A stretch of DNA of 41,669 nucleotides from Bacillota bacterium (GTDB lineage Bacteria; Bacillota; Dehalobacteriia; UBA4068; UBA4997). The notes under the pieces were generated by a model. The model did no database searches, was not told where the DNA came from, and saw only the letters and a program-made list of their open reading frames with translations. The stretch covers positions 1 through 41,669 of the forward strand of contig JAETNY010000016.1 in the NCBI GenBank assembly GCA_021771915.1, in the 5' to 3' direction. This document shows positions 28,232-41,669 of the stretch, piece by piece (positions within the stretch are counted from its first letter, which is position 1; the number at the start of each line of letters is the position of its first letter). The translations under genes were made by a program, and so were the position numbers.

Positions 28232-30199
28232 TCAGTTTAACTGCAAATATCCAACACTATAACTGCCATCACCACCATATGGAATAATATTTATAGTATC
28301 GTAACCAAGTGCAGCAATATCTTTCGGCAAAATGACTTCTCGCTGCTGCATTCCAACACCTTCAACCGTTCCTTTATTCTCCCTGTAAATAATTTCTCCA
28401 TCATTTTCAAGCAACAACCAATATTCATCATTGTTATCGGCAAAGAAACTTATCTTCTGGTTATAGCTTATTTTATCAAGAACAATTTCCACACCATTTT
28501 TATCCAAAATCCAGGCATTAGGATTATTCCAGATATCACCAACCGTAATTGGTTTAGAAAAGTCCGCTATACTCATTTGTTTTTCAGCAACATATCCACG
28601 ATAAAAATCTTTATCTATCAAATAATCATATTTACCCAAATTCATATCTATAATTTGCTTAAAGCGTTCTTTAGAAAACAAATCGCCACTGATAATATTA
28701 TGTAAAACATCATAATATTCAGCCAAATTTTTATCTGCTATTACATTTTCGCCACTTTCAATAGTTTCCAAATAACCATCTGGAAACATTCTTCCTAAAT
28801 GTCCTATACGCCAGGAAGGCTTATAGACTATCGGCAACCTGCTAAATAAGGCGTCCCCCAAAGCAAGACCATCTACAACATGAATATCGGCCCCAACTGT
28901 CAAACCATAAAAACCAATATTTCCAATTACAACAACACTGTTGCCAGAATATAAATCAATTAACGCTCTTTGTTTCCCTGGATGCCTGTTAAATGTTAAC
29001 TCACCATTCTGACGCACTGCATTCAACAAACCAGTAAATTGATAATAAAAACTTCTTTCGTCTGCAATGCCAGAAACAGGAATCCCACTTGTCGGATATG
29101 ACGCATCACTCAAAATATTATTGTTTGGCAAACAAATTGTAATTAATAATATCGTCATTACAACTTTGAATATTTTTTGCAAATCTATTTTCAACTCTAT
29201 TAATATAATAGCCGATATAAATATAATAACAGCAAAAAAGCGCCCAGACATAAAATCTCCGCCTACACGCAAAATATAAATGTTGTATAGAAGCATACCA
29301 GCAGCCATACAAAGAAATTTATGCTCATGAAAATTAATATACCAATAAATCGCCAAACAACCTGCCAAAAGTATACCTAAAAATGCAATAGGGTCACGGT
29401 TAATAAAATCTAAATAATAAACAATTCCCTGTTGAATGTATTCTATATTTGGAATACCAGAATTCAATTTGGCATAAGCCGTGTTGGGAAATAAAAATCC
29501 ATAATAAAATAATGAAAACATTTCCCAGATAATGAATGGTATTATACCAATAACCCCAGGCAGAATATTTTTATACCACTTGTCCTCACCTTTGAGAAAA
29601 AAAGCGTCAAATAAAGCCGGCAAAAACAGTAAAATACTATCCATTCTGTTTAGCAGTGCCAAACAGCCAATAAAGGAAAGTATCAACAGCCGCTTTTTAG
29701 AAAATTTATCCCATCGCAAATAAAAATAATAGAAAATTGCGGCAATTAAATATTCCAGAGAATTTTCCAAACCCGATGTTGAAAAATCAATAAACGCCTT
29801 GCTGCATATCAACAAAACCATCGGCACGGCAAATCGGTTAGCCTTGCCTTTAGCAATACCAAACATCAAAATCAACACGGCCGCAAATGTGCAGCATATA
29901 TTGAAAATCATTGCCGTTAAATAGTATTCTTTGGTAAAAAAGCATAAAATTATCATGCAAAATACCATTAGAGGGTTGGTATATGTCTGCACTCTCTCCG
30001 ACACATTCCAACGCAGGCCATAACCATGCAGAAAATTATCCACGGTTCTAAAAGAAATGCAGGCGTCGTCACTTATCCAGGCAGTACGTATTAAAATAAC
30101 AAATAAAGCCAGCAAAATAAATATAGCGCACAAAATATCGCTGTTAATTGCTTTTTCAAAATTAACTTCTTCTTTAATATTCTTCATTTTATTATTCAT
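28232..30199 (-). CDS. GT-C type membrane glycosyltransferase
   Basis: A 655-residue polytopic membrane protein with about ten hydrophobic helices in residues 20-370 and a C-terminal extracytoplasmic domain. WISDDACISFRTVDNFLHGY, GLRWNVSERVQTYTNPLMV is the first-loop signature of GT-C enzymes resembling arabinofuranosyl/mannosyl transferases, where the acidic pair is catalytic. These use polyprenyl-phosphate sugars outside the membrane. AAGGA lies 5 bases before the ATG. It is the last gene of the locus, separated from the DUF4254 pair by 105 bases that hold a set of palindromes. Donor and acceptor unknown. Confidence 0.75.
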   Translation of the reverse strand: MNNKMKNIKEEVNFEKAINSDILCAIFILLALFVILIRTAWISDDACISFRTVDNFLHGYGLRWNVSERVQTYTNPLMVFCMIILCFFTKEYYLTAMIFNICCTFAAVLILMFGIAKGKANRFAVPMVLLICSKAFIDFSTSGLENSLEYLIAAIFYYFYLRWDKFSKKRLLILSFIGCLALLNRMDSILLFLPALFDAFFLKGEDKWYKNILPGVIGIIPFIIWEMFSLFYYGFLFPNTAYAKLNSGIPNIEYIQQGIVYYLDFINRDPIAFLGILLAGCLAIYWYINFHEHKFLCMAAGMLLYNIYILRVGGDFMSGRFFAVIIFISAIILIELKIDLQKIFKVVMTILLITICLPNNNILSDASYPTSGIPVSGIADERSFYYQFTGLLNAVRQNGELTFNRHPGKQRALIDLYSGNSVVVIGNIGFYGLTVGADIHVVDGLALGDALFSRLPIVYKPSWRIGHLGRMFPDGYLETIESGENVIADKNLAEYYDVLHNIISGDLFSKERFKQIIDMNLGKYDYLIDKDFYRGYVAEKQMSIADFSKPITVGDIWNNPNAWILDKNGVEIVLDKISYNQKISFFADNNDEYWLLLENDGEIIYRENKGTVEGVGMQQREVILPKDIAALGYDTINIIPYGGDGSYSVGYLQLN

Positions 30200-30229
30200 T
30201 CATTTCCTTAAAATTTCTTAGTAAACAGG

Positions 30230-30292
30230 CCTATTATATCCTATACTATGTATAGGATATAATAGGGGTACCCCTATTGGTTCAAAAACCAA
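30230..30292. repeat. Three consecutive, overlapping palindromes
   Basis: First: CCTATTATATCCTATAC (30230-30246), TAT, GTATAGGATATAATAGG (30250-30266), with perfect 17-base arms. Second: AATAGGGGTACCCCTATT (30261-30278), which shares bases with the first right arm. Third: TTGGTT-CAAA-AACCAA (30277-30292). No T-run follows on either strand. Confidence 0.75.
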
Positions 30293-30304
30293 AATACGAC
30301 CTTC

Positions 30305-30565
30305 TTAATCCTTAAATTTCTTTTCGTTATACATCTTCATTTGTCGAAAAGCTGTTAATTTTCGTTTGCCAGCCATAACTTCATCTAAAAGTTCCTGCAA
30401 TTCCGTCACCAGATTATTCCTCTGCATCACCAGGATATTCAAACGATTTTCACAATCCTGCCTGAAATCCGCCCCAACATCATCTCGGTTCCTCTGCTCC
30501 GTCATATGATAAATCTTCAACTCATTAATACTCAGCTTATCTATCAAACTGCCAACTGTTTCCAT
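30305..30565 (-). CDS. DUF4254 protein, C-terminal half (split gene)
   Basis: 86 residues: SLIDKLSINELKIYHMTEQR, ENRLNILVMQRNNLVTELQE, ending AFRQMKMYNEKKFKD. This matches the C-terminal half of DUF4254 proteins (IDRLSILALKIYHM..., YRQMKMYN). It is helical and cytoplasmic, of unknown function, and known from glycan loci. The normal protein is about 200 residues. Here it is split from the upstream half, with the stop and start overlapping as TAATG. One extra G in a G6 run at 30574-30579 would fuse the halves. The methionine is internal to the family alignment, which suggests it is not a natural start, though coupled translation could still produce it. Confidence 0.72.
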   Translation of the reverse strand: METVGSLIDKLSINELKIYHMTEQRNRDDVGADFRQDCENRLNILVMQRNNLVTELQELLDEVMAGKRKLTAFRQMKMYNEKKFKD

Positions 30566-30912
30566 TATGCTCGCCCCCCTGCTGCAACTCTGTCAGTAAT
30601 AATCTCATCAATTTCTTCTATTAAATCATTGCGGTGCTGATTAAGCGGATTGATATTGCGAATAGCTTTCAAAACTGTTGCGTCCACATCGCTTCTCACC
30701 TTATCTTCCTCATGCCACATCTCGGTGTTAGTAACAACCAATTCCTGTATAACCTGTTCCAAATCCTCACGATGTTCATTCAAAGGCTTAATGCGGCGAA
30801 TTTCATCAGTAACAATAACATAATCCGAATTTCTACCCACATTTTCTTCATGCCAGGTTTGAATAGTCGCCTTAGCCAGTTCCGCTATCTCCTGCGCTGT
30901 TTTAATCTCCAT
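30565..30912 (-). CDS. DUF4254 protein, N-terminal half (split gene)
   Basis: 115 residues with two internal helical repeats: TWHEENVGRNSDYVI..., PLNEHREDLEQVIQE, then MWHEEDKVRSDVDATV..., PLNQHRNDLIEEIDEI. A third copy of the same pattern lies in the C-terminal half, so the full protein is a three-repeat helical bundle. It ends at TAA overlapping the next ATG. The reading frame past the G6 run gives VAAGGRA-stop. With seven G it would read AAGGASI and continue into the C-terminal half. GAGGTAAG precedes the ATG. Confidence 0.7.
   Translation of the reverse strand: MEIKTAQEIAELAKATIQTWHEENVGRNSDYVIVTDEIRRIKPLNEHREDLEQVIQELVVTNTEMWHEEDKVRSDVDATVLKAIRNINPLNQHRNDLIEEIDEIITDRVAAGGRA
30574..30579 (-). 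repeat. G6 run at the DUF4254 split point
   Basis: Six C on the plus strand. Seven (or four) would join the two DUF4254 halves in one frame of about 201 codons. Confidence 0.6.
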
Positions 30913-30941
30913 AATTCTTACCTCAATTCTATTTATATCTT

Positions 30942-31319
30942 CTATAAATCTTTATCAACCAAAAAGTGCTCCGTCATAAACCTGTCGCGTTCCGTATTTA
31001 TAGCAACAGACATATTCAAACCAGACGGTTTGCGGTCATTGACCAAAATCCGCTCTCCATAAGGCGCATTAAAAATTATCTGGTCATATCTGATACCGTT
31101 TGCCTGCAAAAAATCCACCGTCATTTTCCTGCAATCGTCAGTTCTGGCTGTTATAAAAATAATCATATCCTCCGTCGGAATTGATTGCAAAAATTCCTTA
31201 GCTCCCGGCAAAAAACTATCATAACCGTCAATCTTATAACCATTATGTTTAACAATCGTGCCGTCTATATCCAAAACCCAGGTCTTAGCCAATGCCGAAA
31301 CTTTTATTACATCAGACAT
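30942..31319 (-). CDS. HAD-family phosphatase, small
   Basis: 125 residues. Motif I WVLDIDGTIVKHNG has nucleophile Asp17 and acid/base Asp19. Motif II is IIFITARTDD, and a final region includes VNDRKPSG. There is no large cap domain, so it is like KdsC/GmhB-size enzymes that act on sugar phosphates. The ATG overlaps the stop of the SIS gene by 8 bases. Its place between an isomerase and DUF4254 suggests dephosphorylation of a sugar phosphate intermediate, which is inferred from context. Confidence 0.78.
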   Translation of the reverse strand: MSDVIKVSALAKTWVLDIDGTIVKHNGYKIDGYDSFLPGAKEFLQSIPTEDMIIFITARTDDCRKMTVDFLQANGIRYDQIIFNAPYGERILVNDRKPSGLNMSVAINTERDRFMTEHFLVDKDL

Positions 31320-31896
31320 TTTTCAATTCTTCTCCAATATGACCGCCCGGGTGATTTTCCTTAAAATCACTCAGAGAAATATTCAACTCATCGCAAAGCC
31401 GCATGGCCAGCATTTGCAGCACAATCAAGTTCAGAGTTGTGGAATTGTTAGGCATAATATTCCATTTATCCCCCTCATGCTGCAATTCAATTAACAGAAC
31501 TTTTTCAATAGCTTTGGCCAGAGTGCTTTCCTTTTCAAAGGTCAGCAGCCAGATAATACAATCCCTTTTTTGCAGCTGCTTATACAAATACACTGACTCC
31601 GAAGTTTCACCGCTCTTAGTCAGAATAATTATTAAATCTCCGGAATGAATCATGCCCAAATCACCATGTACTGCCGAATTGGTATGCATAAAACAGGCAT
31701 TAAGCCCCAGTGAATTCATTGTTCCCACAAATTTGTCACAAATAGGCACATTTTTGCCCAAACCGGAAACTATAATCTTCTTATCACGGCGCAGCACAGC
31801 AGCACAATCCTGCACCAGTTCTGTAAATTTATCCTCACTGATAGACATCAGTGATTCGTCCAAAATGTTTAGCAAATTCTTAAAATCATTTTTCAT
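31312..31896 (-). CDS. SIS-domain sugar phosphate isomerase (KpsF/KdsD-like)
   Basis: 194 residues with a single SIS domain: IIVSGLGKNVPICDKFVGTM, HGDLGMIHSGDLIIILTKSG, ETSESVYLYKQLQKRDC, and a C-terminal FKENHPGGHIGEEL that recalls the HPGGALG motif of arabinose-5-phosphate isomerases. There are no CBS domains. GmhA-type sedoheptulose phosphate isomerase is the alternative. The start overlaps the fusion-gene stop as ATGA, and the HAD gene overlaps its end, so the three are tightly coupled. Confidence 0.8.
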   Translation of the reverse strand: MKNDFKNLLNILDESLMSISEDKFTELVQDCAAVLRRDKKIIVSGLGKNVPICDKFVGTMNSLGLNACFMHTNSAVHGDLGMIHSGDLIIILTKSGETSESVYLYKQLQKRDCIIWLLTFEKESTLAKAIEKVLLIELQHEGDKWNIMPNNSTTLNLIVLQMLAMRLCDELNISLSDFKENHPGGHIGEELKNV

Positions 31897-33398
31897 AATG
31901 CTTCCTCCAAATACTTTATCCCATTATAAAAAGCGCCGCAAATTGAATCATAATCTTCCCAGGCATAAGTTGTCAGAGATAACCAGATAATAGCGTGCAA
32001 CAGCTTAATCTGCTCTCGCTTAACCTCGTCTCCCAACAATTCAAAGAAATAATCCTCCATATCCTCCCAGCCAGAAGACTGAATAGCCAGATTTACATCA
32101 TGCTCGTTAATTTCCAGACTAAAACGCTTCAAATTAAACTGGTCATAATTGCCTACCACTGAATAATAAAGCTTAACCCAATCATAAGCAACATCACCAT
32201 AAAACTCTGTCCGACCAAAATACCCCCTGGGGTCAATAAGCACCGGCTCCCTGTCATCACGCAGCATAATATTGGAAAAAGTGCAATCACCATGCAGAAA
32301 TACAAATTTCTGCGGTTTCAACTCGTCCAAACGTCTTTTCAATTCATCTTGCACAAAGAAAATATTTCGGCACTTATGACCATTAATAGTTATGTATTCA
32401 TCATTGGCAAAAGGCACTAAATTCCGAACCTTAACCAAACGGTCAAAGGTTTTGCCTATATATGCTTCCTCAAAACTAAGGTCGTCATAAGCCACGCTGC
32501 CGCAGGCATGAAGCCTTTGCAGACAATCCACAATCTGTTTCAAAATATCCTGCTTTTGCTCAACAGACAAATCCTCATACTCATAAACATTTTTGCCGTT
32601 TATCCGCTCCAATTTTAATGGTTCTGTTTCATAAATCTGCGGCAGATTGGCAAAACCCAAAGACTGAACTTTTTCATACCACGCTCGCTCACGAACAGCC
32701 AGCTGCCTGCCCTGCTCATCAATTCCCTCCTTAACAATATACTCACCATTCAATGTTATCCGGTTAAAAGGACGACATTTAGTCTTGGGCAATTTAGCAT
32801 ATTCAGACAACAAACCATACTCCCTGGTACGTTCCAGAGTTATTGTATCAAACTGCATATTCTGCCCGGAAAGCCATTTAACAAACTCGCCGTCTGCCGG
32901 AACTTCCTGCAATACATCTTTATCCCTAAACATAAACAAACCGGCCACCCCACAGCTTTCAGAACGCTCCTCGCTGAAAATACCATTTTCATATTTCCAG
33001 CGACATTCAAAGCCTAAGGAAGTACCAACATAATTATTAACAGCCACACCCTCTACCGAAAATTCTTCCGGCAAAATTAAATCAGACCAAATAAGCATAA
33101 ACGACTCATTAGACGGCAATATAGCCAAAGACTGTTTCAGACCGGCACAGGTTCCTGTATGCCCCGAGGCATTAACCACCTTATAATCAACCTCTGCAAA
33201 AGCAGCCAGATATTTTTCTAAAACCACACATTTATAATCGCCAATAATGATAAACTTTTTATCCGGATATTTTCTGAACAGATGAAAAATAATCGGCAAA
33301 TTGTTAACAGGCACCAAGGCTTTGGGTTTATTATGCGTTAAATGCTGCATACGCGTCCCCTTGCCACCGGCCTGTACAATTATGTATTGAAAATCCAT
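31893..33398 (-). CDS. Nucleotidyltransferase-kinase fusion protein
   Basis: 501 residues with two enzymes in one chain. Residues 1-230 form a sugar-nucleotide-type nucleotidyltransferase: YIIVQAGGKGTRMQHLTHNK, PKALVPVNNLPI, and an acidic WSDLILPEE. Residues 240-501 form an aminoglycoside/choline-kinase-like fold, with LHGDCTFSNIMLRDDREP near 367 and VLIDPRGYFGRTEFYGD. Fused LicC/LicA-like or HddC/HddA-like activities are possible. AAGGAGG precedes the ATG. Overlap with the SIS gene suggests the kinase and transferase act on the same product line. The substrate is not known. Confidence 0.8.
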   Translation of the reverse strand: MDFQYIIVQAGGKGTRMQHLTHNKPKALVPVNNLPIIFHLFRKYPDKKFIIIGDYKCVVLEKYLAAFAEVDYKVVNASGHTGTCAGLKQSLAILPSNESFMLIWSDLILPEEFSVEGVAVNNYVGTSLGFECRWKYENGIFSEERSESCGVAGLFMFRDKDVLQEVPADGEFVKWLSGQNMQFDTITLERTREYGLLSEYAKLPKTKCRPFNRITLNGEYIVKEGIDEQGRQLAVRERAWYEKVQSLGFANLPQIYETEPLKLERINGKNVYEYEDLSVEQKQDILKQIVDCLQRLHACGSVAYDDLSFEEAYIGKTFDRLVKVRNLVPFANDEYITINGHKCRNIFFVQDELKRRLDELKPQKFVFLHGDCTFSNIMLRDDREPVLIDPRGYFGRTEFYGDVAYDWVKLYYSVVGNYDQFNLKRFSLEINEHDVNLAIQSSGWEDMEDYFFELLGDEVKREQIKLLHAIIWLSLTTYAWEDYDSICGAFYNGIKYLEEAL

Positions 33399-33408
33399 TG
33401 CTCCCTCC

Positions 33409-33873
33409 TTAATTTACTTTCTTAAAAATATATAATTTGCTTAAAATATAATTGGTAACAATAACCACAAACTGAGCACCCACCTTCACCGCCATACTGC
33501 TAAAACCAAGCTTGGTTATAAACAGAAACAAAATCAGTTCCTCCAAAAGCAGAGTCAAAACTCTGGCTGAAAAGAAATCCCCCATTTGACGAATATGACG
33601 ACGAATATCGTTATATTTAACCCGAAAAACATAGTTGCGGTTTGTCATATAGGCAAAGTAAACGGCAATAAACCACGATAATATATTGGCAACTAATTCA
33701 TTCAAATTGCATACAACATTAAATAAGCCATAGGTTGCCACACTTACCAAAAAGGTCAGCCCACCAAAGAAAAGATACAATAAACCTTCTTTATGCTTAA
33801 AATAAAATGGCTCAAATACCCTAAATCCAGGCATTCCCATAACCACATCAAAAATATCTCTATCCATTCCCAT
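33409..33873 (-). CDS. GtrA family membrane protein
   Basis: 154 residues with four membrane helices (LYLFFGGLTFLVSVATYGLF, LVANILSWFIAVYFAYMTN, LLLEELILFLFITKLGF, VGAQFVVIVTNYILSKLYIF). The family is thought to move or support polyprenyl-phosphate-linked sugars across the membrane. The adjacent GT2 gene, 12 bases upstream, is the usual partner that loads sugar on the lipid. GAGGT lies 8 bases before the ATG. Confidence 0.88.
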   Translation of the reverse strand: MGMDRDIFDVVMGMPGFRVFEPFYFKHKEGLLYLFFGGLTFLVSVATYGLFNVVCNLNELVANILSWFIAVYFAYMTNRNYVFRVKYNDIRRHIRQMGDFFSARVLTLLLEELILFLFITKLGFSSMAVKVGAQFVVIVTNYILSKLYIFKKVN

Positions 33874-33885
33874 TTGCCAATACCT

Positions 33886-34641
33886 CTAATTTTCGCTCGA
33901 CTTTTGCAGCAATATGTCCGCCTTGGGCATAAAACGAACATGCCACGCCGTTTTGAAATATTTAAAATTGGCAAAAAACGGATTAACCGAAGCCCCCTCG
34001 GTTCGAGCCTCCCACTGCGCCGGTACCTCCAGAAACTCCACTCCCAAACGAATTGGTTTAATCGCCGTTTCCAAAAAGAATGGGTGCTTGGCCTCCTCCC
34101 AATTTATGCTTTGCACCAATTCGGTCGGCAAACAACGATAACCATAAGTTAAATCGCTTAATTTCACCCCAAACAAAATTGCAATAAGCTTTTCAAATAT
34201 ATAATTACACACCAACTTTATTTTATTGTAATTACGGAAACCGCCACCTTTTATCCAACGAGAAGCTGTAATCACCTTTTCCGGATTTTGCTTGGCCAAT
34301 TCAATAAAGCGAGCGATGAGCTGCGGCGGTGTTTCCAAATCTGAACTCATCACCACTACATGGCTGCCAATCGCCAAATCAAAACCATCTTGTATGGCTC
34401 CGCCCACAAACGGACGCTTTTGATTATGTATGTATATCCTGAGCCTGTCCTGATATTGTTCAACCAGCTGCTCGGCCGTTCGGCGAGAATCCGTGCTGGT
34501 TCTTTCGCAGAGAATTATGATTATTTCTGCAATATCTGATAAGTTGCAGGTTTGCACTATTACATCTACCGTTTCCTGCAATGAATACGTTTCGTCCATT
34601 GCCGGTACCAACAAAGATAAGTTCTTGTATTTACCATTCAT
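33886..34641 (-). CDS. Family 2 glycosyltransferase (polyprenyl-phosphate sugar synthase type)
   Basis: 251 residues with a GT-A fold: LSLLVPAMDETYSLQETVDV at the start, acidic SSDLETPP near 100, ASRWIKGGGFRNYNK, YGYRCLPTE and FLETAIKPIRLGVEFLEVP. It lacks membrane helices at the C-terminus, so it works with GtrA. It likely transfers sugar from a nucleotide donor to a polyprenyl phosphate, giving substrate for the GT-C enzymes of this locus. That is inferred from the pair. Confidence 0.85.
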   Translation of the reverse strand: MNGKYKNLSLLVPAMDETYSLQETVDVIVQTCNLSDIAEIIIILCERTSTDSRRTAEQLVEQYQDRLRIYIHNQKRPFVGGAIQDGFDLAIGSHVVVMSSDLETPPQLIARFIELAKQNPEKVITASRWIKGGGFRNYNKIKLVCNYIFEKLIAILFGVKLSDLTYGYRCLPTELVQSINWEEAKHPFFLETAIKPIRLGVEFLEVPAQWEARTEGASVNPFFANFKYFKTAWHVRFMPKADILLQKSSEN

Positions 34642-34734
34642 TATTTTAACAACCTTCCTTAGATTTTTAGGAACCGTTTTATATAAGCTGTATATCTACA
34701 AAACAACAGTGCTCTTGTTTAGATGTCATATTAT

Positions 34735-35691
34735 TTATCTGGTAAGACTACTATCTGCAAATGTATCTACACAAATGCTATCTAATATATAGCCGGCCTT
34801 TTTATCATAAACTACAATGTTAATACCACGACTATTTATGGCATATTCCACACCATTTATCTTTATAGAACAATTATTCCCAAAATCATAACCTGCGCTT
34901 AATAAAGATATTTGGCTATCTGCAATAATTGTTTCATACTTTATTTCTTTATCTGATAAGTTTTCATAAATAACTTGTCCATTGTCAATTACAGCTAAGT
35001 ATGACCAACGATATTTCCCTGGCAAATCAAACTCTAAACCCATATTACAAAAATCCTGAACAATTTCCGCTGTTAAGGATTGGCTTGCTTCGTCTTTTAC
35101 CGCTATACAAACTACATAATCAGATTGACCTCCAATATAATTCAAAAAATCGGAAATACTTTTCTGGCTTTTGATTTCATTAGACACTATATTAATCATC
35201 TTATCCGTCCATAAAACACAATCTCTACCCTGTTCCGAAAAAATTAAACCTATTCTATATGTTCCATTTTCCACACTTTCTGCCGGAAACTTACCAAACC
35301 AGCCTACATATAAATTCTTATCATCAATATCAGATTGGTTCAAATAATATATATCTGTTCTTTTATTTGTGTATAAATCCAACTTGTAAGTTTTATCATC
35401 TGACATTAATAATAAATCGGCAGCAACAGGTAAATTTTTATCATCTTCTTTTTTCATTAAGTATCCTGAAATATTTACCAGCCTGTACAAATCTTCTTCA
35501 TCAATAAAACTGTTTTCAATTTCATATAAATAATCCCCCGAAGCCAAATATTCCGGAATAACTTTTAACTCCTTAATCGTACGCTCAAAAGTACATACAT
35601 TCGTACTTGCATAAATACTGATTATTTCCATAAAAAATAATATATATATCAAAACTGGTAATAAAAATCTTTTTATATATCGTTGCTTCAT
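34735..35691 (-). CDS. Secreted/anchored protein with ILEI-like domain
   Basis: 318 residues. An N-terminal membrane helix (FLLPVLIYILFFMEIISIYA) and a beta-rich middle domain are followed by a C-terminal region resembling the interleukin-like EMT inducer (ILEI/FAM3) fold: SDYVVCIAVKDEASQSL, SLLSAGYDFGNNCSIKINGV, NSRGINIVVYDKKAGYILDS, then a DTF ending. In bacteria this domain occurs in glycan-synthesis proteins. The first half has WFGKFPAESVENGTYRIGLI, an Ig-like or carbohydrate-related pattern I cannot name. It is expected to face the outside. GGTGAAAC precedes the ATG. Family by motif recall only. Confidence 0.6.
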   Translation of the reverse strand: MKQRYIKRFLLPVLIYILFFMEIISIYASTNVCTFERTIKELKVIPEYLASGDYLYEIENSFIDEEDLYRLVNISGYLMKKEDDKNLPVAADLLLMSDDKTYKLDLYTNKRTDIYYLNQSDIDDKNLYVGWFGKFPAESVENGTYRIGLIFSEQGRDCVLWTDKMINIVSNEIKSQKSISDFLNYIGGQSDYVVCIAVKDEASQSLTAEIVQDFCNMGLEFDLPGKYRWSYLAVIDNGQVIYENLSDKEIKYETIIADSQISLLSAGYDFGNNCSIKINGVEYAINSRGINIVVYDKKAGYILDSICVDTFADSSLTR

Positions 35692-35702
35692 GTTTCACCA
35701 AC

Positions 35703-37283
35703 CTATAAACCCAATAACGCTGATAAGAAAGTAACAAATTTAGATACCGTTACAATCCTTTCAGGTGCTGAATCAAACATTCCAAACATCAAATAAAATA
35801 CACACACAGCGACTGGCAATATATTCAGATTTTTCTGTTTGCTATTACCAAAATGTAAATTATCATAAATTAATTGTATTTTTTCCTCTTTTATGAAGAA
35901 AAAAATTATAACAATCATCGCATTTAGCATAAATGAAGAATATCTTCCAACATCTTGAGCTATAATCATAGGTACGAATGCAAACAATGGAGATAACATT
36001 AAATAAGCAAAGGACGTCTTTTGAAGTACTGTTAAGGTTTGATTTTTTTGCTTAAATTCTCTATATAAATTAAAACAGATACAACCCATTAAAATCATTG
36101 CTGGCAATAAAGCAAGATAAAATAGTAAAAATCCTTTATATTTTATGGTAACCATTTGATCCATAAAACTAAATTGTTCCGAAATATTCCAGGTTTCCCA
36201 GTTTAAAGCATTATAGTTAAGCTGAAATCCAGAATGATTTTGTAAATGGTTAACAATTTCTAAATTATTATATTGTAACCATGGGTCATCTCTAAACAGA
36301 AAAATACAACATATTAAAACAGTTATACCAAAGGAACCACATAATAAAAACAAATATTTTTTTCTTTTATATTTTAGATATTTATACAATAGTATCGCTA
36401 AAACAGGCATCAAAAAATATGTACAGCTTGTTTCATTAATTAAAAGCATATTTACAATTAATATAGGCAGTAACCACAATCCATAATCATTAGCAATTAA
36501 AAACACACAAATTGCAAATATTATAAAAAGATATATATCAAAATTTAGTCCATCAGGAATAAAAACAAATGTACTTGGCAAAGAAAGAATGAATAAAATA
36601 AAAAACCAACGAATTTTATCATCATTTTGTTTTTTAATTAATTGACCAATACATATACTCAATACAAGATAGAAAACTACAAAAAAACATAATTTAAATA
36701 TAAGTAATTTTTCTTGCGATATATACGGACTTATATTTAAAAATATATCACCTACTATCCCTCGTTTAACAAAACCAATTTCATAACCCTTAAAATAAAG
36801 ACTTGAAGCATAATCACGAATGTCAGGATAAAGGCTATATCTTACAAGCATAAAGATACTGCCTAAAAATAACATAATTTCATATCTGTATTTTTTTGCT
36901 TTTAACATTAGTTTTTCAAAGTATAATCTGATAAATATCCAAACGGTAGCAAAAACAACAGAATGTATGAACAAAAAAACTAATATCCGCAGCACTTCGT
37001 TCTTTAATAAAAGTTCACTTGTTGAATCTGGAATTTCTACTACAATGTCCTTACCCGTTTCAGAATATAAATTTACATCTTCAATAAAATCACCAACGGT
37101 AATATTTATCAATCCACCAGTATTTTGTCCCTGAAATACAATTTTTCTTGTTACACCAGCAGGCACTTTTAAGACGATACTATCTGTAATATCGTTATCT
37201 GCCTGCCAACCATACATTCCATTCAACCATACCCACTTGCCATTCTCAATCACAGGAAAATCAACAGGAACATATTGTACCAA
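35703..37283 (-). CDS. Membrane glycosyltransferase-like protein, main part, out of frame with its 5' end
   Basis: The frame is open for 526 codons but has no Shine-Dalgarno at its first TTG. It is really the rest of the gene starting at 37519. The first ~90 residues form an extracytoplasmic beta domain (ENGKWVWLNGMYGWQ, VLKVPAGVTRKIVFQGQN). The same domain lies in the 39143-41233 protein (ESGHWFWSGETYAWR, VLKIPVGWDRTLNFSS). About ten membrane helices follow, with loop motif RDYASSLYFKGYEIGFVKRG. The full-length protein would be about 605 residues with two N-terminal helices. Changing the G10 tract to 11 or 8 restores the frame. It is probably a GT-C or polymerase-like enzyme, with donor unknown. 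Confidence 0.7.
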   Translation of the reverse strand: MVQYVPVDFPVIENGKWVWLNGMYGWQADNDITDSIVLKVPAGVTRKIVFQGQNTGGLINITVGDFIEDVNLYSETGKDIVVEIPDSTSELLLKNEVLRILVFLFIHSVVFATVWIFIRLYFEKLMLKAKKYRYEIMLFLGSIFMLVRYSLYPDIRDYASSLYFKGYEIGFVKRGIVGDIFLNISPYISQEKLLIFKLCFFVVFYLVLSICIGQLIKKQNDDKIRWFFILFILSLPSTFVFIPDGLNFDIYLFIIFAICVFLIANDYGLWLLPILIVNMLLINETSCTYFLMPVLAILLYKYLKYKRKKYLFLLCGSFGITVLICCIFLFRDDPWLQYNNLEIVNHLQNHSGFQLNYNALNWETWNISEQFSFMDQMVTIKYKGFLLFYLALLPAMILMGCICFNLYREFKQKNQTLTVLQKTSFAYLMLSPLFAFVPMIIAQDVGRYSSFMLNAMIVIIFFFIKEEKIQLIYDNLHFGNSKQKNLNILPVAVCVFYLMFGMFDSAPERIVTVSKFVTFLSALLGL

Positions 37284-37291
37284 AATGGATT

Positions 37292-37519
37292 TTATAAAAA
37301 CATCTTGTTGATTAGTACCCCCCCCCCAACTTTTAGTCGAATTTCATCGAAACATAGAGAAGAAATAGGCCATACAAAAAATAACAGCATCTCTATTACA
37401 AATGTAACAATACAAGATGTAGCAATATATTTTATCGCAACCTTGTTGTGATAAAATAAAGCCATACTAACAAATGATATTATTATAATTGCTATACATA
37501 TTAAAATTGTTATGTACAT
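37292..37519 (-). CDS. N-terminal part of the phase-variable membrane protein (currently ends after a poly-G tract)
   Basis: The ATG at 37519 follows AGAGGT by 6 bases, so this is a genuine start. It encodes two membrane helices (TILICIAIIIISFVSMALFY; ATSCIVTFVIEMLLFFVW), then FDEIRLKVGGG. The G10 tract at 37318-37327 shifts it into VLINKMFL-stop, giving 75 residues. In the alternative frame after the tract the chain would read GTNQQDVFIKSILVQYVPV and run into the 526-codon frame. The paralogous protein at 39143-41233 has matching segments on both sides of this point (DTVTLTALGEK..., then the beta domain), supporting one gene. Confidence 0.7.
   Translation of the reverse strand: MYITILICIAIIIISFVSMALFYHNKVAIKYIATSCIVTFVIEMLLFFVWPISSLCFDEIRLKVGGGVLINKMFL
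37318..37327 (-). repeat. Poly-G tract, 10 bases (coding strand), gene out of frame
   Basis: Ten C on the plus strand, codons 65-68 of the gene starting at 37519. 11 or 8 G would connect both parts. Confidence 0.85.
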
Positions 37520-37529
37520 TATTTAACCT

Positions 37530-39071
37530 CTAAACCGATATGATATAAATATTAAAAATCAATGCCAAGACCGAAAAAGCCATGAAAATACATAAAATTA
37601 TATTAATAAAGGTGCCAATTATACTATTTTTCATTGTAATATAATTTTCTGAATACTTTTGTAACCAACAGGCTGTTCCAATAAAGGGAAAAAACATCAT
37701 TATAGGAACCAACCTGTAATTCATATGACAAATAAGAGGATAAGAAAGATTAAGGTTTATATAACTAAACATCAAGGCAATATAACTGATAAAAAGCAAA
37801 ACTTTTAATCCTTTATTTATTGTTTTCCTTTCAAAGATTGTCCATATAAAAAGAATATTCATAACAATCGCCAAAATAATGCTTATCCATAATAAAACTA
37901 ATGCCGAAGATGCTATAAAACCAGAAGCCCACCATTCATCAAATAAAGAGCTCCTTATAAGTGAAAGCCAAATATTGTTTTCTAATTCTGGGTTCCAAAC
38001 AGTAAAAGCATGAGATAACTGACCCAGCGGCGGCAAAAATATTGTTTGACTATCTATATATTGAGGACTATTTACATCATTTATAAGTTGCATATATATA
38101 AAAGGTAAATCAAACCTTATCATATTGCGTATCGGCCAAAACAAAGATATAGGAACGCATACTGTTAAAAATAAAATAAATTGGGATATTACTTCTTTCA
38201 ATTCACTTCTGCGCAACCACAGAACATATGCAAACATTCCGCCAACACCAACAGCCATAATTGCCACACTAAATTTGGTAAACATACCAATGCCAAAGGA
38301 TAATGCAAGATAAAACATTTTCACAAATGTCTGATTTTTATACCAACGTATTGCATTCCATATAATTAATGTCATTAAATACATTGTCATACAATCATTG
38401 TTTAAGGTTACAGACATTATTGAAAAAAAAGGATGTAATGCCAAAACAACTATTAAACAGCTTAACCACTTACAGTTAATATCAAATTCTTTCAAAATCT
38501 GATATACAGTCCAAATGGTTAAACAGGAACAACATAATGTAATTATTTGCAAACTTTCATAACATAACGGTTCCACAACATTAAACAGCCTTGTTATACC
38601 CAATATAATTGCACCAAGTATGTGAAAGCCTGGCGGCTGATAAAATTCCCAAACCCCTATATGTTCTGCATCAGGTAATTGATGGTTTTTATATAAATAA
38701 TCTATATAACCAAAATGCCCCCAGCCGGACTCCGCTGTGTCAAGCCCTATGAAATTGCCTACATCATGATTAGTAATATCAAAAGGCGCACAAAGCACAT
38801 AAAAGGATTTAAGTAGAAAACTGCCTAACAAAATATACCCAATTATTTGATTGCTATCTTTTTGCTTTTGTAATACAAACAAGTAAAATGCACTTACAAA
38901 ATATAACAAACACATACAGATAACCAATATATCTTTATATACAGAAATAAAATCAGTAATAATCTTATTACAACTTAAGAACCAAACACATAAACAGCCA
39001 AGAACTATAAATTGCCAGGACGCTCCCCCCCCCACAAAGTTTAACTTAACTAAGCATCTTTTATGGTTCAT
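37530..39071 (-). CDS. GT-C/GT39-like membrane glycosyltransferase with in-frame poly-G tract
   Basis: About 513 residues with around eleven membrane helices. The first outer loop holds FGYIDYLYKNHQLPD and VWEFYQPPGFHILGAI, in the style of PMT/ArnT (GT39) enzymes with the PP-G/H motif. KFSVAIMAVGVGGMF and SYPLICHMNYRLVPIM occur later. The ATG at 39071 follows AAGGTGAT by 7 bases. The frame from 39083 adds four codons over the Shine-Dalgarno. Nine G at codons 13-16 encode VGGG, just before the first membrane helix. Any change of one or two bases would end translation early. It lies 10 bases upstream of the other poly-G gene. Confidence 0.75.
   Translation of the reverse strand: MNHKRCLVKLNFVGGGASWQFIVLGCLCVWFLSCNKIITDFISVYKDILVICMCLLYFVSAFYLFVLQKQKDSNQIIGYILLGSFLLKSFYVLCAPFDITNHDVGNFIGLDTAESGWGHFGYIDYLYKNHQLPDAEHIGVWEFYQPPGFHILGAIILGITRLFNVVEPLCYESLQIITLCCSCLTIWTVYQILKEFDINCKWLSCLIVVLALHPFFSIMSVTLNNDCMTMYLMTLIIWNAIRWYKNQTFVKMFYLALSFGIGMFTKFSVAIMAVGVGGMFAYVLWLRRSELKEVISQFILFLTVCVPISLFWPIRNMIRFDLPFIYMQLINDVNSPQYIDSQTIFLPPLGQLSHAFTVWNPELENNIWLSLIRSSLFDEWWASGFIASSALVLLWISIILAIVMNILFIWTIFERKTINKGLKVLLFISYIALMFSYINLNLSYPLICHMNYRLVPIMMFFPFIGTACWLQKYSENYITMKNSIIGTFINIILCIFMAFSVLALIFNIYIISV
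39025..39033 (-). repeat. Poly-G tract, 9 bases (coding strand), gene in frame
   Basis: Nine C on the plus strand, codons 13-16 of the GT-C gene. It encodes VGGG, as in the neighbouring tract gene. Confidence 0.85.
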
Positions 39072-39142
39072 TTTACAAATCACCTTTTACCATTCACCTT
39101 AATAAAACACCATACCACATATCTGATATATAATTGTAAAAT

Positions 39143-41233
39143 TTATTTTCTAACATAAACCCTTACTTGCACATCTCTGTTATCTGACCCAAGTTTATAA
39201 TTATTATCTAAAATAGTCTGCAATTTCGGCGAAAGTTCGCCATGCGAATATTGTATATATATTCTGTTATATTGCAGTAACTGTTCTTCACTTATATCAT
39301 ATTGTGTAATTACCTGAATATCATTTCTTTTGCCTTGTCTGCTAATATAATATTCCTGCCAACTCTCTGCAATTAATCTGTTAGCATTACAGACAATCAA
39401 AGTATCATCATTATATATGTAATTACTTTGTGTATAAATCCAATCCGCAGCTTCACGAAAAGGCTCATTTGATTTAGATGTAGATACAACGCTAAAACAG
39501 TTCAATGTTAAAACCAGCAAAAAGAATATACAAAATACTTTTTTGTAATCTGTTTTTATAAATGAAATAGATGATACAGAAAGCAAGCATACATATGGAA
39601 TTAAAAATAAGAAATATCTGTTAGTCCATAAAGGAGCATTTGTATTAATAAAATTTCCATATAAAAACAACAGCAAAATAGATGAAGTAATAGCAAACAA
39701 AGAAAATACACAATAAAATCTTATCCATTTAACTTTATATATATTTTCTTTAGAATACAAAATTATTGATGTGGCAATACCAAAAACAAATAACCAGAAT
39801 GTTAATTCATAATCCCCCGAAATAAAATATAATAGTGATTTAATCGACAACAAATTGGGAACTGAATGCCATGCTGGAATTCCTTCCTTGTGTTTATATA
39901 TAAACACAAACGCAAACCAGATTAAACAAACAATGGCAAGAAAAGAATACGGAATAAAATCTTTTATTTTTAATTCTCTTTTAATAAGCAAATAGCCATC
40001 TGCACATGCAAACCATATACAAGCTAAAATACCAAAATAATGTGTCATGGCTAAGGCAGCCATGGAAAGGCTAAACAATATTGTCCACTTTTTTTGGTTT
40101 TTATTTTCATTACGCTTAATAAAGATATATAAAGTTAAAGTTGAAAATAATACCATACAGGCATAAGACCTATACTCATATGCAGCATAATTCCATATTG
40201 TTATAGATGTAGCCATAAGAATTGCAGCCAAAATACCACAATATTTATCAGCTATTTTTTCGCAAATAACCCCCATAATAAAAATTGCAATACATACAGG
40301 AATAATGCTAACCAAAAGCAAATATGGCTCACCATAAGGCACAATATGATACCATAGAGTTTCTAACAAAACCACAAGAGGCGGATTATCACAATTGGCA
40401 TACAAACAGTGCATTAAAGCTTCTTTTAATGAGCCATTAGTAAAAGCGACCTCATAAAGTTCATCATACCAAAATGAAATATTACCGGCATAATGAAACA
40501 TTAATAAAAGCGTAATAAATGCTATACATGCATAAATAAACTTACTATTATTTCTACAAAACCACTCCTTACTTTCAGGTTCATTATGCAATACTTTATT
40601 AAACAGCAAAATGCTTCCAAATACTATCAATAACATCATCGCTGTATACACTGCTACATATCTGACCTGATTTGCCAGCAAAACTCCAATTTCACTTTTA
40701 GCAATTTGAACAACTTTTATAGAACTTTTTTCTGCATATGTATCCTCAACCCAAACATTATACCCATCATCAATTTGAACCAAACCACGCCATTCACTAC
40801 TACTAAAGTTAAGCGTTCTATCCCAGCCAACAGGTATTTTTAACACAACCGTTCTGGTCATACCATCTGGCTGTCTGCTATCCGTTTCCGGCCTCCATGC
40901 ATATGTTTCACCACTCCAGAACCAATGACCTGACTCTATCTCAAGCGATTTACCAGCTAAATATTCTTCGCCATCAATTGTGTAGCCATTCAAATATACC
41001 TCCATACCTCTGGCTTCTTCTCGTTTCTCACCAAGTGCGGTTAAAGTTACAGTATCCGTCAATGGCGGTAACAAATTGGCTATATAATTGGCACAACAAG
41101 CAAAAATCGTTACCAAAATACCTAAAAATATAAGCTGTTTTTTATCTAATCTCTCAGAAAATATACGATAACAAAGTACTAAAGTTAAAATAAAAACCAA
41201 AATTTTAATTGCTGCTGCAGTGAACAAAATCAT
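39143..41233 (-). CDS. GT39/PMT-type membrane glycosyltransferase with extracytoplasmic beta domain
   Basis: 696 residues. Two N-terminal helices are followed by an extracytoplasmic beta domain at about 75-190 (LEIESGHWFWSGETYAWRPE, TVVLKIPVGWDRTLNFSSSE). The GT-C core begins near 225, with FWYDELYEVAFTNGSLKEAL (acidic DE near 256), CDNPPLVVLLETLWYHIVP and YEYRSYACMVLFS, the usual PMT_2 layout. A C-terminal outer domain ends with YKLGSDNRDVQVRVYVRK. AGGAG is 11 bases before the ATG. It has no homopolymer tract. It likely transfers sugar from a polyprenyl carrier to a surface polymer. Confidence 0.8.
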   Translation of the reverse strand: MILFTAAAIKILVFILTLVLCYRIFSERLDKKQLIFLGILVTIFACCANYIANLLPPLTDTVTLTALGEKREEARGMEVYLNGYTIDGEEYLAGKSLEIESGHWFWSGETYAWRPETDSRQPDGMTRTVVLKIPVGWDRTLNFSSSEWRGLVQIDDGYNVWVEDTYAEKSSIKVVQIAKSEIGVLLANQVRYVAVYTAMMLLIVFGSILLFNKVLHNEPESKEWFCRNNSKFIYACIAFITLLLMFHYAGNISFWYDELYEVAFTNGSLKEALMHCLYANCDNPPLVVLLETLWYHIVPYGEPYLLLVSIIPVCIAIFIMGVICEKIADKYCGILAAILMATSITIWNYAAYEYRSYACMVLFSTLTLYIFIKRNENKNQKKWTILFSLSMAALAMTHYFGILACIWFACADGYLLIKRELKIKDFIPYSFLAIVCLIWFAFVFIYKHKEGIPAWHSVPNLLSIKSLLYFISGDYELTFWLFVFGIATSIILYSKENIYKVKWIRFYCVFSLFAITSSILLLFLYGNFINTNAPLWTNRYFLFLIPYVCLLSVSSISFIKTDYKKVFCIFFLLVLTLNCFSVVSTSKSNEPFREAADWIYTQSNYIYNDDTLIVCNANRLIAESWQEYYISRQGKRNDIQVITQYDISEEQLLQYNRIYIQYSHGELSPKLQTILDNNYKLGSDNRDVQVRVYVRK

Positions 41234-41255
41234 TTAAGCCAAAACTCCTGTATAA

Positions 41256-41669
41256 TCATTTTTTCTCCAAAAACTCCGCATACCTATCACAAATCCCAGA
41301 CACATCAGAACCAAACTCCACCTGCCGCCCCTTATCCAGCCACAGTATCTTGCTGCACATCTGCCTAATCTGGTTTAATGAATGAGATACCAATATCGTG
41401 GTCGCTCCACCAGAGATAATCTCTTTCATCTTAGCTTCACTCTTCTTCCGGAAAGCACCATCGCCAACAGATAACACTTCATCTAATATCAATATATCAG
41501 GTTCCACCAAACTGGCTATCGAAAAGGCCAAACGGCTTTTCATACCAGAAGACAACTGCTTAAACGGTCTGTCCTCAAACTCTTTCAACTCTGCAAACTC
41601 TATTATCTGACCATAAGTTTCGTCCATAAACCTTCTGGTATAGCCCAGCATCGCCCCTCGCAGATAGGT
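41256..41669 (-). CDS. ABC transporter ATPase for polysaccharide/teichoic acid export (N-terminus cut by window edge)
   Basis: Only the last ~138 codons are inside the window and the frame is open to the edge. ABC signature QLSSGMKSRLAFSIA, Walker B DILILDEVLSVGDGAF and the switch histidine VSHSLNQIRQM are present. The segment matches the TagH/Wzt/RfbE class that exports lipid-linked polysaccharides. The chain ends at GICDRYAEFLEKK without the extra sugar-binding domain seen in some Wzt proteins. The Walker A and the permease gene are expected to the right. It stands first among the glycan genes visible here. Confidence 0.9.
   Translation of the reverse strand, partial: TYLRGAMLGYTRRFMDETYGQIIEFAELKEFEDRPFKQLSSGMKSRLAFSIASLVEPDILILDEVLSVGDGAFRKKSEAKMKEIISGGATTILVSHSLNQIRQMCSKILWLDKGRQVEFGSDVSGICDRYAEFLEKK

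Follow-up and report, generated by a model that had tools for sequence, protein, structure and literature searches.

Gram-negative bacteria of mucosal surfaces provide the best-known examples of random switching of surface structures through homopolymer slippage. The classical poly-G switches of surface glycans are those of Campylobacter (PMC6321876), and Campylobacter jejuni NCTC11168 has 29 loci with seven or more repeats (PMC4965091). The G-tract of the sortase-pilus genes of Bifidobacterium breve has been followed by maximum-depth sequencing in mice (PMC9187656). A 2025 review names Clostridioides for DNA inversion only (PMC11868660), and searches of the open-access literature gave no account of poly-G switching of glycans at multiple loci in spore-forming Bacillota. 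The window analyzed here (the whole stretch of 41,669 nucleotides, from contig JAETNY010000016.1) contains a G10 tract that breaks the frame of a gene in a cluster for an ABC-exported surface polysaccharide. We put the probability that this tract is a contingency element switching a membrane gene of that cluster (about 605 residues) at roughly 85%.

The ten-G tract that the original prediction placed at 37318 to 37327 is present exactly there, as C10 on the plus strand, and occupies codons 65 to 68 of the focal gene, which is encoded on the minus strand. As had also been predicted, this gene has a well-defined beginning: an ATG at 37519, with AGAGG upstream and ten bases past the stop of the preceding gene, opens a 5' part (37328 to 37519, minus strand) that encodes two predicted membrane helices and runs for 64 in-frame codons into the tract. 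The frame then ends at 75 residues, and the gene copy in this assembly is OFF, with a 75-residue product. The 3' part (35703 to 37317, minus strand) lies in the other frame, which is open for 526 codons past the tract, down to 35703, and offers as its first start only a TTG at 37283, in agreement with the earlier statement that it has no start signal of its own. The frame arithmetic of the original prediction, which gave a protein of about 605 residues, could be reproduced, as a tract longer by one G yields a single frame of 605 codons. The focal tract is, in other words, a homopolymer inside a coding region whose length sets the reading frame, as in poly-G translational phase variation.

The two parts are joined and intact in contig CATJCJ010000324.1 from a mouse-gut metagenome (uncultured Eubacteriales, iMGMC), which is 99.3% identical to the window across 10.5 kb and in which the focal gene is a single frame of 604 codons (ON). 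Tract length, which the original prediction had proposed to compare among related strains, is not fixed: the junction of this strain reads AAAAGTG9TACT, two bases shorter than AAAAGTTG10TACT in the window, and the frame is restored. This junction is the sole net indel in the 10.5 kb, the remaining indels being one compensating pair. The metagenome-assembled genome (MAG) that holds CATJCJ010000324.1 is probably mixed (4.8 Mb in hundreds of contigs), and therefore we relied on this contig only. Several points count against a switch. The focal tract is known in two alleles only (a scan of viral contigs found no further ones), and these differ by TG and not by a pure one-G step, so that connecting them would take either the deletion of two bases or a T-to-G substitution combined with slippage. 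Furthermore, the compared assemblies are metagenomic consensus sequences.

The likeliest alternative is a miscount of G residues in the consensus sequence of a tract that in truth keeps the frame, given that homopolymers are prone to error and that both sequences come from metagenome assemblies. However, the TG difference between the strains is beyond what miscounting of G alone yields, A/T runs of 6 to 8 within the same genes leave the frame unbroken, the tract is internal to the contig, with more than 4 kb between it and the contig end, and the same pattern is repeated by independent loci in two genomes, as described below. We consider such an assembly or sequencing error unlikely.

Still less probable is a reading in which the focal gene is decaying as a pseudogene and simply happened to break at the tract. 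This would fit the broken frame and the narrow distribution of the family: in a profile search of 398 phylum genomes, the full-length relatives among the matches listed came only from the same genome (the orthologue described next is outside the listed matches), and the partial, paralogue-type matches among those listed came from one congener only. Against decay, the break is the only lesion. The original prediction had named a tract length fixed in all related strains, with the gene decaying elsewhere, as what would refute the switch; in the strain comparison, no lesion other than the junction was found in the 526 downstream codons, and both the 99.3%-identical strain and a congener have the gene intact. 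The congeneric genome G008 encodes an intact orthologue of 608 aa, 51% identical from end to end, which lacks the tract and reads KVTALGNSNEN at the position of RLKVGGGTNQ in the focal protein. Because this orthologue is intact over its full length, the long frame is real, and the focal tract was probably gained within the present lineage. The 3' parts of the focal gene in the window and in CATJCJ010000324.1 differ by 3 synonymous and 3 nonsynonymous substitutions (pS 0.0092, pN 0.0023, pN/pS about 0.25), and this lean toward synonymous changes, though few, would be compatible with constraint.

The focal protein had been labeled glycosyltransferase-like, a label that found no backing in domain searches, as the protein has no match in Pfam or NCBIfam, PMT_2 and related domains included. 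Over its first 170 residues the protein is similar to the PMT_2 paralogues, but it lacks their DELYE-type motif. The alignment with the paralogue at 39143 to 41233, which was said to extend to both sides of the junction, is convincing over the N-terminal helices and the beta domain, but only there, with 15% identity overall. An AlphaFold model of the 604-aa form contains many helices and is of low confidence (pLDDT 47); in this model, the tract falls in a variable segment near the start of the outer beta domain, after the second helix. The product can be described as a membrane protein without a known family, which may be a glycosyltransferase (for now a tentative label), a polymerase, or another glycan-modifying protein. 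That the gene affects the surface glycan is a fair inference from its position among genes for a Wzt/TagH-like exporter, a family 2 glycosyltransferase, a GtrA-like protein, and a KpsF-like protein.

The genes of this cluster discussed here with their coordinates are all encoded on the minus strand. The next gene downstream of the focal one encodes a 318-aa ILEI-domain protein (34735 to 35691), and further along are the genes for the family 2 glycosyltransferase (33886 to 34641) and the GtrA-like membrane protein (33409 to 33873). On the other side lie a PMT_2 membrane glycosyltransferase gene (37530 to 39083; 513 to 517 aa; 35.1 bits, over the cutoff), the tract-free PMT_2 paralogue of 696 aa (39143 to 41233), and the C-terminal part of the Wzt/TagH-like ABC exporter ATPase, truncated by the contig end (41256 to 41651). 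The first of these, which is ON, has a tract of its own that the original prediction overlooked, a G9 at 39025 to 39033 (minus strand) in codons 13 to 16 counted from the ATG at 39071. It is in frame, and one G more or less would shorten the gene to 34 or 21 codons; however, its length is the same in both strains, which counts against switching. The tracts of these two adjoining genes are the only G/C runs longer than 6 within the window. Site-specific inversion as the switch was rejected, as no inverted repeats of 20 or more bases were found in the window from 30000 to 41669.

Two further features of the region were recorded. A DUF4254 protein (30305 to 30912, minus strand) is split over two overlapping open reading frames (TAATG) just past a G6 run, with a motif duplicated within the first of them; this could be a frame-switch site or a natural split. 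In addition, contigs C41 and C29 both end, with near-identical sequence, within the same Wzt/TagH-like ATPase gene (41256 to 41651 of the window and 15978 to 16373 of L024), so that a duplicated exporter gene, at which the assembly broke, is common to at least two polysaccharide clusters.

A pattern search of the 2.30-Mb genome listed eight runs of nine or more G, five of which have at least ten. Four of the eight are in surface-polysaccharide loci, three of these four being out of frame. On contig C20, within a glycosyltransferase cluster that includes a gene for a Wzm-like permease, one gene is divided by a G10 into a frame of 242 codons and another of 428 (OFF). The orthologue in G008 has G9 and a single open stretch of 662 codons (ON); the bases on both flanks of the run are identical, and the two regions share 88% identity over 8.8 kb. 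This pair represents a clean one-G step with an ON/OFF consequence. The C20 gene has no Pfam family match, and an SGGFDS motif, recognized by eye, suggests an asparagine-synthase-like enzyme. In another glycan cluster, on contig C29, a G14 stops an ATP-grasp gene at 317 codons (OFF); the likely C-terminal residues are in the other frame, one G fewer gives 381 codons, and an 82%-identical homologue has a G9 that is likewise out of frame. Thus, a difference in length between ON and OFF states is seen for the focal tract between close strains and for the C20 tract between congeners, and the proposal that the focal gene is a phase-variable gene in its OFF state draws support from both. The remaining four runs are outside glycan genes, two without a clear gene and two just before gene starts. 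The latter, a G9 at C3:38833-38841 and a G10 at C29:53136-53145, directly precede a permease-like and a sigma-like gene (assigned by eye), where the length of the run could tune translation instead of the frame.

The congener G008 likewise has eight runs of nine or more G. Three of them leave the frame open, in genes for an Acyl_transf_3 protein and a hexapeptide acetyltransferase and in the C20 orthologue. Three others break it: a G12 in another hexapeptide gene, a run in a GNAT gene of which the halves correspond to complementary parts of Acetyltransf_3, and a run in a gene resembling, by eye, the open reading frame at 764 to 1534 of the window. The remaining two of the eight runs were left unclassified. 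By these counts, both genomes have several candidate contingency loci in surface-structure genes (4 of 8 runs in the genome under study and at least 4 of 8 in G008, the latter in genes for acyl- or acetyltransferases or in the orthologue of the C20 gene). Other congeners have zero to three runs, mostly outside glycan genes. One contig of the mixed mouse-gut MAG (G001:C568) carries five runs of eight or more G in or beside glycan genes, among them an amine oxidase-like gene, a TylF methyltransferase gene, and a split GT4 glycosyltransferase gene. Since the search for homologues of this GT4 gene in the genus gave none, nor did the C20 gene turn up in the MAG, most tracts of the MAG were excluded as evidence. 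Another of its contigs (G001:C389) has an in-frame G10 in the AGG motif of a housekeeping gene that by eye is TsaD-like, possibly a chance tract or a cost of tract tolerance.

The number of runs was compared with Markov models trained on 125 kb of the genome with the tracts masked and scaled to 2.3 Mb. Models of orders 2 to 5 expect 0.4 to 1.5 runs of nine or more G, against the eight observed, and 0.07 to 0.3 runs of ten or more, against five. The order-1 model, however, expects 6.9 and 1.6, respectively, the former being close to the observed number, so that the argument from the number of runs alone is a moderate one; tract position and frame effect carry more weight. In a relative, G053, 48 runs of nine or more G are found; in the 20 stretches opened, almost every run has exactly nine G and many leave the frame of an ordinary gene unbroken, and these look like chance runs. 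Runs of eleven or more G occur in 123 of the 398 phylum genomes, which counts against the run itself as proof, and no recognizable split glycan gene was seen at the further phylum loci opened, where many runs are outside long frames. Because long G runs are by no means rare among Bacillota, a run by itself does not make the case, which depends on its position inside a gene, its effect on the frame, and its polymorphism. Runs of 11 to 23 G, many of them outside long open frames, were recorded in many distant Bacillota genomes (L184 to L203).

In the mechanism that we favor, slipped-strand mispairing during replication would alter the length of the G tract at random and thereby shift the reading frame of the focal gene, so that translation from the upstream start would either complete the protein or stop at about 68 to 75 residues. 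The adjacent PMT_2 gene, with its own G9, would be an additional switch, and the C20 (G10) and C29 (G14) loci would add others, so that several combinations of surface glycans would be open to the cells. We infer, from the sequences, slippage as the mutational cause, its reversibility, mixtures of states within a population, the activity of the enzyme, and the glycan phenotype. The genome has a mutS gene, whose product counts against unchecked slippage; slippage would have to outrun repair. Long homopolymers can also cause transcript slippage, and RNA polymerase or the ribosome could slip on the G run to give some full-length protein from the out-of-frame gene, even alongside slippage in DNA, but DNA tract lengths vary among strains and species with consequences for the frame, and the congener orthologue encodes the protein without any tract, which leaves expression-level slippage as the cause about as improbable as a pseudogene.

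By gene content, the host lineage is spore-forming: its SigE and SigG matches each exceed the curated cutoff, and the SpoIIGA match (150 bits) is under its cutoff of 209.6. The proposed mechanism, slipped-strand phase variation, is a classical one; the new element is a poly-G repertoire spread over several loci in an uncultured lineage of spore-forming Bacillota. That this gut genus has such a repertoire, largely for surface polysaccharides, with four or more switchable glycan genes in a single genome, several in a congener, and mutS present, seems probable, although we hold this with somewhat less confidence than the role of the focal tract. If so, selection by phages, the immune system, and the niche would, in gut Bacillota, act on preexisting glycan variants, and some apparent pseudogenes in assemblies of gut Bacillota would be OFF alleles.

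Compared with the described systems, the present one is closest in layout to that of C. jejuni, in which several genes of one genome for the biosynthesis of surface structures likewise carry intragenic G tracts with frame-dependent ON and OFF states (PMC6321876, PMC4965091). However, C. jejuni is Gram-negative and its switching has been measured, whereas the candidate glycan loci described here, at least four, belong to a spore-forming member of the Bacillota. The B. breve system shares the gut Gram-positive host and an intragenic G-tract that splits a surface gene, the frames being rejoined in B. breve by replication slippage, but it belongs to an actinomycete and concerns pilus genes (PMC9187656). 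Frame-breaking 5' homopolymers are known within the Bacillota in swrA of Bacillus subtilis and inlA of Listeria monocytogenes, which differ in being poly-A tracts at single loci in nonglycan genes (PMC2831843). Finally, Clostridioides difficile is, like the present organism, a spore-forming gut member of the Bacillota; its phase variation proceeds through site-specific DNA inversion (PMC9286219, PMC5386303).
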